Origin: a virus
Virus record (IMG/VR): IMGVR_UViG_3300028548_005375
Span: 1-23,442 of that record
DNA length: 23,442 nt
Reading direction: 5' to 3' (one strand)
The notes beneath the pieces were generated by a model. That model was not told where the DNA came from. It saw only the letters and a program-made list of their open reading frames with translations, and did not search any database. This document shows positions 2,731-9,834 of the stretch, piece by piece; position 1 is the stretch's first letter; the number at the start of each line of letters is the position of its first letter. The translations under genes and the position numbers were made by a program.

Positions 2731-3007
2731 CGCTTTCATCCTTCATCTTCTTAGTTCTAAAAAACCCATCATGCTCCGGGTTATAAGCCATGAATAACCT
2801 CGCATAGTACGCGATGAAATCGTTACTGATCTTAAAGCTGTCACCCTTTGTTTCTAACGCAGTCTCCCACCTAATACGGTTAATGATTAACCAGGCGCTT
2901 GATTGCACAAGACCAGCATCAATAGCCCTATGAGTGAAGCGTTCAAACATCTGATAGACATGAGGGTTTTGATTGTGCCAAGACCACCACTTTTGTTTTG
3001 TAGACAT
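2720..3007 (-). CDS. Conserved phage protein of unknown function
   Basis: This 95-residue protein contains NPHVYQMFERFTHRAIDAG, RIRWETALETKGDSFKISND and AYYARLFMAYNPEHDGFFRTKK. I recognise this pattern from many small phage proteins encoded in early regions, but no function is established to my knowledge. GAGAGGTG lies just upstream of ATG 3007, and TAATG couples it to the preceding short gene. The protein is rich in aromatic and basic residues and has no membrane segment. A nucleic-acid or host-interaction role is possible but not shown. Confidence 0.78.
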   Translation of the reverse strand: MSTKQKWWSWHNQNPHVYQMFERFTHRAIDAGLVQSSAWLIINRIRWETALETKGDSFKISNDFIAYYARLFMAYNPEHDGFFRTKKMKDESDAS

Positions 3008-3093
3008 TAGTCACCTCTCAAGATGCAATAGCAATACGTTGCGCTGGCAATACAAAATCCAATAAGAAATATACCCATTATCAAATCTCCCAT
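3007..3093 (-). CDS. 28-residue single-TM small protein
   Basis: This short frame encodes M-G-D-L-I-M-G-I-F-L-I-G-F-C-I-A-S-A, then TYCYCILRGD, mostly one hydrophobic helix. GAGGA lies 7 bases before its ATG. Its start abuts the upstream stop (TAA then ATG), and its stop overlaps the next start as TAATG. That exact fit between two leftward genes supports real translation. Several Cys residues lie at the C-terminal end of the helix. It could be a membrane-acting early peptide, such as a host-takeover or exclusion factor, but only size and hydrophobicity support this. Confidence 0.55.
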   Translation of the reverse strand: MGDLIMGIFLIGFCIASATYCYCILRGD

Positions 3094-3225
3094 TTATTCG
3101 TCCTCGCTTTGTTCGGCAAAACAATCATCACAAACAGGCTCTTCAACCTTGTTAAATTTTAAATACTCAGCAGGGCTGTAATCGTCATCCCTCCAAACAC
3201 CACAGATTTCGCATTTGTAGATCAT
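3094..3225 (-). CDS. Small zinc-ribbon-like protein
   Basis: This 43-residue protein (MIYKCEICGVWRDDDYSPAEYLKF...) has two Cys pairs, CEIC near the start and CDDC near the end, spaced as in a compact zinc ribbon, with an acidic C-terminus ending QSEDE. The start at 3225 is chosen because AAAAGGAGAGAGAGAC precedes it; a longer frame back to 3354 overlaps the preceding gene and encodes unrelated sequence. Function unknown; zinc ribbons of this size mediate protein or nucleic-acid contacts. Confidence 0.68.
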   Translation of the reverse strand: MIYKCEICGVWRDDDYSPAEYLKFNKVEEPVCDDCFAEQSEDE

Positions 3226-6829: not shown

Positions 6830-7591
6830 ATGCCGTTGAGCAAAATTCTTGTCGCTCCCTTAGAGGCTTTAACCGATCCTGACTTGACTGATCAAGAGCG
6901 CAGGGTGTTGCTTGCTCTGTTTTCTTATCGCGGAAGATTAACCGAAAACGTCTGGCCGACAAGAGAGCAAATTGGTGAGAGAGCGAACATTAAAGACCTC
7001 GCTAGTGTCGGTAAACGGACATCATCGCTTGCCAAGAAAGGTTGGTTGATCAAGTTTAAAAAAGGCTTCTCTGGGCATATGACTTATACGATGCAGTTCC
7101 CAGTACGTCTTGAGACTCCAGTGGACGCTACAGTACAACCATTAGAGGTGAAATCCACCTCGTATGCATTAGAGGCAGAATCCACCTCCCATTCGAGGCA
7201 GAATACACCTTCCCATACGAGGTGCTTAGTACCCGCTGCATTAAACAAACCAATTAAACAAACCATTAAACAAACCATAGTACATAAGAGAATCATTTTT
7301 TCTGTTGATGATCCTTTAGGTGATCTATACAAAGAATTTATAGACTACCGAATCGGGCTAAAGCATCCATTGACTCAACAGATGTTCGATCGTTTTCTTG
7401 GCACGGTACAGATGTGCTGCGATGAACTATCAAAAACCCCAACGTGGGTCATCACAGAAACAATCGATGCGGGCTGGCGAACATGCAAAGCAGAATGGCT
7501 CAGAAACAGGATTGCGGTAAAGCCTAAGTCTGATTCTATCAGAGGCAAATCAATTCTTGAATCTTTAACCGACACCAGTTGGGCTAACTGA
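6830..7591 (+). CDS. Replication initiator, lambda O-like, with N-terminal winged-helix domain
   Basis: This 253-residue protein has an N-terminal region of about 95 residues (LTDPDLTDQERRVLLALFSYRG...WPTREQIGERANI...VGKRTSSLAKKGWLIKF) typical of the helix-turn-helix domain of phage O-type initiators. A repetitive linker at residues 100-150 is encoded by the iteron and AT-rich repeats. The C-terminal domain (DPLGDLYKEFIDYRIGLKHPLTQQMFDRFL...AEWLRNRI) probably contacts the helicase or its loader. As in lambda, the origin seems to lie inside the gene. No helicase or loader (P/DnaC-like) gene follows, so the host DnaB may be recruited directly. AAAAGG lies only 1 base before ATG 6830; TTG 6836 has better spacing. 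Confidence 0.8.
   Translation: MPLSKILVAPLEALTDPDLTDQERRVLLALFSYRGRLTENVWPTREQIGERANIKDLASVGKRTSSLAKKGWLIKFKKGFSGHMTYTMQFPVRLETPVDATVQPLEVKSTSYALEAESTSHSRQNTPSHTRCLVPAALNKPIKQTIKQTIVHKRIIFSVDDPLGDLYKEFIDYRIGLKHPLTQQMFDRFLGTVQMCCDELSKTPTWVITETIDAGWRTCKAEWLRNRIAVKPKSDSIRGKSILESLTDTSWAN
7145..7276 (+). repeat. ori: Candidate replication origin: iterons plus AT-rich triplet repeat
   Basis: Three 17-mers, GAGGTGAAATCCACCTC (7145-7161), GAGGCAGAATCCACCTC (7172-7188) and GAGGCAGAATACACCTT (7195-7211), and a degenerate GAGGTG at 7219 follow one another at 27, 23 and 24 bases. The first is a perfect GAGGTG/CACCTC dyad. Right after come three exact copies of ATTAAACAAACC at 7240-7251, 7253-7264 and 7265-7276, an easily melted strand-asymmetric tract. 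Iterons followed by an AT-rich tract inside the initiator gene is the layout of lambda ori. Confidence 0.72.
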
Positions 7592-7848
7592 TGGCCTCTT
7601 GCAAAATCCGAAAACGATATAAGTTCATCGGCACTGACAGCAGATTTAAGGCGGGTGAGTTTTATGATCGCTGGCAGATAAGTGACATTTCTGATTTAGG
7701 TTTTTTTGCAGTTAAGAATCGGTTGCTAGGTGTAGATTTTTTTGATGATAATTTTTTGAGGCCAGCAAAACCGCGCAATACTATATCACCTGTTTTTCAG
7801 ACGACCACTGAAGCGTTGAGCGCTAAGTGGCTGAAAAGGAAGTTGTGA
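7591..7848 (+). CDS. Small phage protein, unknown function
   Basis: This 85-residue basic protein (MASCKIRKRYKFIGTDSRFKAGEFYDRWQISDISDLGFFAVKNRLLGVDFFDDNF...) reads like a small beta-barrel domain: alternating strands YKFIG, YDRWQI, GFFAVKN, VDFFDDNFL. It overlaps the initiator stop by 1 base and its own stop overlaps the next start. No family recognised. It occupies the slot where lambda-like phages usually encode a helicase loader, but it is too short and lacks Walker motifs. Confidence 0.68.
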   Translation: MASCKIRKRYKFIGTDSRFKAGEFYDRWQISDISDLGFFAVKNRLLGVDFFDDNFLRPAKPRNTISPVFQTTTEALSAKWLKRKL

Positions 7849-9801: not shown

Positions 9802-9834
9802 ACTGTACATATATCCACTGTATATGTAGACAGT
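9802..9834. repeat. Interrupted inverted repeat upstream of late promoter (candidate Q site)
   Basis: ACTGT (9802-9806) and ACATATA (9807-9813) pair with TATATGT (9821-9827) and ACAGT (9830-9834). The two arms are 12 complementary bases with a 2-base insertion on the right and a 7-base centre. The right arm covers the -35 hexamer TAGACA. The placement fits a Q-binding element or an operator for late expression. Confidence 0.5.

Follow-up and report, generated by a model that had tools for sequence, protein, structure and literature searches.

The tract at positions 7145–7276 of the window, a linear virus record of 23.4 kb (23,442 nucleotides) analysed over its whole length, is very probably a phage replication origin located inside the gene of its own initiator. 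A lambda-like origin at this place had been proposed in an earlier note, and an origin of the lambda type within that gene is the preferred interpretation, supported by the assignment of the protein to PHROG 678 (matched by 9/9 homologs, the window protein included), by the position of the repeats in the linker and by their behaviour among relatives. The tract appears to represent a clean natural case of protein-coding DNA under DNA-level selection, in which synonymous sites are frozen while the amino acids drift; the location of the repeats in different codon frames is part of the same case. It also points to an O-type initiator of uncultured phages in which tandem 12-mers form the putative unwinding element and for which a helicase loader is not recognisable.

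The O-like replication initiator gene (6830..7591, plus strand) is an open reading frame for 253 amino acids, the product of which matches PHROG 678 (replication initiation O-like) with an E value of 1.5e-10 over residues 12–252; the value for lambda O is 1.7e-35. An N-terminal winged-helix domain (residues ~12–90), a disordered linker (~91–156) and a helical C-domain (~157–230) were predicted, and the C-terminal tail LTD(T/R)SWA is conserved. Overall confidence in the AlphaFold model is low (pLDDT 47, with residues 75–158 below 50), and the N-domain of the model resembles a LexA-type wHTH (Z 4.8, 2.2 Å over 61 residues). Neither a viral fold library searched with the model nor the solved structures searched with the sequence gave a significant match. 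The Pfam Phage_rep_O N-domain (PF04492) is matched by lambda O (5.7e-36), whereas the window protein showed only a weak HTH_36 similarity below the cut-off. When the two proteins were compared directly by two-sequence blastp, the similarity was marginal (E 0.007) and comprised a short N-terminal stretch and the LT(N/D)T.W C-terminal tail. No significant full-length match was obtained with named phages and plasmids, the Leptospira phages LE3/LE4 and a Kocuria plasmid matching the N-domain only (E 2e-3 and 7e-5), and tblastn against bacterial genomes found no relatives.

The gene layout of the window is lambdoid. The minus-strand genes (5744 to 1428) code for an HTH protein, recombination-type proteins, an SSB-like protein and an integrase; the plus-strand genes (from 5907) code for HTH repressor-like, O-like, NinB-like, NinG, Q-like, lysozyme, terminase, portal and tail proteins. 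The early genes, in the order Cro/repressor-like HTH genes, O, NinB, NinG and Q, are reminiscent of the early region of a lambdoid phage. Nothing was found in the window with Rfam or in a scan for tRNA genes. The interval between the Q-like and lysozyme genes contains a LexA-box-like sequence, CTGTATATGTAGACAG, at 9818–9833, and a 19-bp tandem repeat (TCATGGGGCAATCTTGATT/GGTT) occupies the intergenic positions 1187–1224 beside the integrase gene, possibly as an att or regulatory site.

The array, all on the plus strand, lies in the predicted disordered stretch between the winged-helix N-domain and the helical C-domain. Iterons 1 (7145..7161, GAGGTGAAATCCACCTC) and 2 (7172..7188, GAGGCAGAATCCACCTC) are read in codon frame 0, as EVKSTS and EAESTS, respectively, while iteron 3 (7195..7211, GAGGCAGAATACACCTT, read as SRQNTPS) and iteron 4 (7219..7235, GAGGTGCTTAGTACCCG) are in a shifted frame. 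The family consensus GAGGTCAAATCCACCTC is a 5+7+5 dyad. The earlier note had described three iterons with a GAGGTG/CACCTC dyad and a degenerate fourth copy; all four are present, but the exact dyad is confined to iteron 1, those of iterons 2 and 3 being imperfect. The three exact copies of ATTAAACAAACC that it had listed begin 4 bp past iteron 4. The first (7240..7251) is in codon frame 2 and encodes LNKP, the second and third (7253..7264 and 7265..7276) are in frame 0 and encode IKQT, and together they form the presumed DNA-unwinding element. Since successive iterons are spaced by 27, 23 and 24 bp and successive 12-mers by 13 and 12 bp, the repeats run through two codon frames. Among the homologs, the GC content of the 12-mer tract is 23–28%, its computed stability is, in most of them, the lowest or close to the lowest of any 50-bp stretch of the gene, and its top strand is devoid of G in 7/9.

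The repeat array was confirmed to be real and non-random. Two copies of the consensus iteron with at most three mismatches were found in the window against 0.02 expected, and three 12-mer matches with at most one mismatch were reached by only one of 100 whole-window shuffles. When the same protein was recoded synonymously, three identical 12-mers never arose in 3000 recodings, and three iteron copies at 13/17 or better arose once in 1000. No comparable array was found elsewhere in the window, and DnaA boxes were not enriched in it. The GC skew, put forward earlier as a check, has its cumulative minimum near 7000, at the array. This signal was rejected as origin evidence and provides no independent support, because the skew follows gene direction; the plus-strand genes left of the array are positively skewed as well.

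The 17-bp iterons and the 12-mer tract are kept in all eight relatives found among viral contigs, while the linker protein drifts, as the earlier note had anticipated. The homologs encoded at these loci show 59–99% identity over the best segment, and several of the nine sequences, the window included, are close to each other. No homolog has the same protein linker without the DNA repeats. An identical 17-mer is translated both as EVKSTS and as (A/S)RSNPP. In relative L004, frame 0 extends over iterons 1–3 and the fourth is in the shifted frame, while in the other homologs the shift already affects the third iteron. Of the 12-mers of L003, two are read in frame 2 and the remaining one in frame 0, which is the reverse of the window, also in the order of the frames. 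The iterons of L009 have changed in sequence and kept perfect dyads (GAGGCAGATTATGCCTC). Iteron 4 has the well-preserved form GAGGTCAAATCCACCCA in L004 and has become the dyad CGGGTCAATTAGACCCA in L006. Compensatory change in the dyad arms is modestly above shuffles: among 20 distinct iterons, 89 of 120 cells pair against a shuffle mean of 82.5, and 847 of 20000 shuffles reach 89. As the arm complementarity exceeds the shuffles modestly, binding of the iterons by a dimer is reasonable, not proven.

The codon test was done with six diverged homologs; as related pairs were pooled, its counts are descriptive and not independent trials. In the N-domain, the amino acid identity is 82%, conserved residues share their codon in 51% and the four-fold sites are 43% identical; the corresponding values for the C-domain are 69, 50 and 38%. 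In the iteron segment, the amino acid identity is 49%, whereas the same codon is used in 81% and the four-fold sites are 75% identical. In the 12-mer segment, on which the peak of synonymous conservation of the initiator gene is centred, 64% amino acid identity goes with 98.5% same codons and complete identity of the four-fold sites (46/46). The usual relation between amino acid and synonymous-site conservation is thus inverted in the linker. This pattern supports selection which preserves the DNA repeats rather than the encoded protein, in agreement with the earlier suggestion that DNA function overrides protein constraint here.

Both oriLambda, in gene O, and the window array lie in that part of the initiator gene which encodes the linker behind the DNA-binding domain, and both consist of about four 17–19-bp imperfect dyads followed by an A+T-rich tract (PMC5043065, PMC7466680). 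Stx phages carry a six-iteron version of oriLambda. Frame-shifting iterons are not new, since the annotated lambda iterons are in frames 0, 2, 2 and 1 of O and so occupy three codon frames, compared with two in the window. The iteron sequences of the two origins are unrelated, the A+T-rich part consists of three exact 12-mers in the window and of a purine-rich tract without such repeats in lambda, and the window protein is shorter than lambda O (299 amino acids). In lambda, O dimers bind 19-bp inverted repeats, the neighbouring 40-bp A+T-rich region opens, and the origin is activated by transcription from pR (PMC5043065). By analogy, the iterons should be the binding sites of the O-like protein and the 12-mers the place at which it opens the DNA. 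Its dimers would contact the 17-bp dyads via the N-terminal winged helix and bend the DNA, and the adjoining A+T-rich tract of three 12-mers would then open, probably aided, as in lambda, by transcription of the initiator gene itself. The linker peptide would be a by-product of the DNA encoding it.

The tandem 12-mer tract also has counterparts in other systems. The 13-mer unwinding elements of oriC and of plasmid RK2 are likewise tandem A+T-rich 12–13-bp repeats beside initiator sites (PMC5043065), although they are unrelated in sequence and the window initiator is neither DnaA nor TrfA. Further counterparts are the intragenic origins of the L156 type, L156 being a PHROG 270 match: in these, GGGTATA... 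/ ...ATACC arms are followed by tandem 12-mers of the TTAATAATACAG type inside the initiator linker, as in the window, while the initiator family and the repeat sequences are different. The linkers of L160, L167, L191 and L206, all of the PHROG 270 type, contain in-gene repeats of their own, behind which lie tandem 12-mers of the TTAATAATACAG type. Dyads with tandem 12-mers therefore recur in unrelated initiator families.

The term lambda-like should not be read as equivalence with the lambda O/P system, because no relative of P, DnaC/IstB or DnaB was found and the Pfam O domain is unmatched. PF06992, PF01695, PF03796 and PHROG 109 gave no match in the window, in which the segment from O to Q is complete, or in the relatives, the records of which are fragmentary; lambda, the positive control, matches PHROG 109. 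The tandem 12-mer tract as presumed unwinding element and the lack of a detected P/DnaC/DnaB-type gene are two differences from lambda. The lack of a recognisable loader raises the question of helicase recruitment; in place of a P-type loader, the C-domain or another partner may take this role. The place of lambda P is taken by a gene (7591..7848, plus strand) for an 85-aa protein which matched nothing in Pfam, PHROG or NCBIfam and ends with SAKWLKRKL. A tail that fits S..WL.(K/R)R or a similar pattern is common to otherwise dissimilar small proteins near O, encoded at 7591–7848 of the window and in L004 (5777–6037), L005 (5764–6255), L009 (5767–6021), L006 (1716–2054) and L067 (685–1029), with SAKWLKRKL, SAEWLKRPLV, SAKWLRKSI and SQQWLSKRF as variants; it is possibly a docking motif.

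Other functions of the repeats have to be weighed against an origin. Dyads bound by a winged-helix protein would suit a repressor site equally well, and the best solved matches of the N-domain model are transcription regulators such as LexA, so that the array might be an operator at which the O-like protein autorepresses its own gene by roadblock while replication starts elsewhere. We regard this as improbable: it leaves unexplained both the three 12-mers with complete synonymous conservation and the O-like family assignment, and the window offers no other candidate origin array. Autorepression could nevertheless occur alongside origin function. Some other DNA-level role, in partition, packaging or recombination (e.g. 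as a hot spot of module exchange between phages), appears more improbable still. Cassettes built in the same way are found near terminase genes or after Q in other phages, and lambdoid origins are also sites of module exchange; however, the location in an O-like gene and the layout of iterons plus an A+T-rich tract directly match a known origin type. The least credible alternative is that the repeats of the linker peptide were selected and the DNA repeats merely result from a recent tandem duplication. Although two of the three 12-mers encode IKQT, this explanation is already contradicted by the different codon frames of the repeats within and between homologs, by a linker less conserved in amino acids than the domains and far more conserved at synonymous sites, and by a related architecture outside genes, interrupted by in-frame stops in L023 and L149.

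This extragenic architecture is the most surprising lead of the study. A pattern scan for three copies of AAACAAACC yielded, in addition to the family, several unrelated winged-helix replication-type proteins with such tracts in the linker (L025–L027 and L029, identified by eye) and two arrays outside initiator genes. By follow-up scans, a cassette of ~120 bp, made of 17-bp dyads and AAACARACC repeats, was then located outside any initiator gene in nine contigs: L006 (3330–3435), L023 (4502–4617), L067 (3748–3880), L098 (9623–9755), L107 (2981–3070) and L149–L152. In it, a GTTACnnnnnnnGTAAC array with a spacing of mostly 24 bp is followed by ATTAATAAACARACC and additional copies of AAACARACC. 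When phage backgrounds are compared, the dyads together with the first repeat are ~0.7–1.0 identical, the next 30 bp are variable, and the identity outside the cassette is ~0.12–0.4. The backgrounds in which the GTTACnnnnnnnGTAAC cassette sits, near Q or terminase genes, are dissimilar and number at least six; three of them additionally have an O gene of their own, the in-gene array of which is different. L006, a relative of the window, combines a window-type O gene and its in-gene array with a cassette directly after the Q gene, and L150 and L098 combine an L156-type initiator, which has a different in-gene array, with a cassette near terminase genes.

The open frame VTPIVT...INKQT, which is interrupted by stops in L023 and L149, suggests that the cassette descends from an initiator linker. 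Its cognate initiator gene was not found in phages or plasmids, and the cassette junction had no exact match in bacterial genomes. O-like genes of the L039/L058/L143 type contain in-gene GTTACCCCAGAGGTAAC iterons which are one base from those of the cassette, a likeness partly selected by the search pattern. The cassette may serve for firing in trans, as a decoy, or be a relic. That the dyads and AAACARACC repeats form a modular origin which leaves the initiator gene and is fired, or acts as a decoy, via the initiator of another phage, a prophage or a plasmid is conceivable, if on balance doubtful. If true, it would mean origin piracy or origin titration between phages, and cassettes working as origins or decoys would place phage competition at replication initiation; synthetic ectopic copies of the lambda origin are known to block lambda (PMC4488673). 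When orphan copies were sought for the iteron type of the window itself, the scan gave only family members and the unrelated G+C-rich contig L158. Repeated TAGACCGGGGTG / TAGATCGAGGTG units were observed flanking or near the orphan cassette in L006 (5159–5294) and L107 (~2915–3140).
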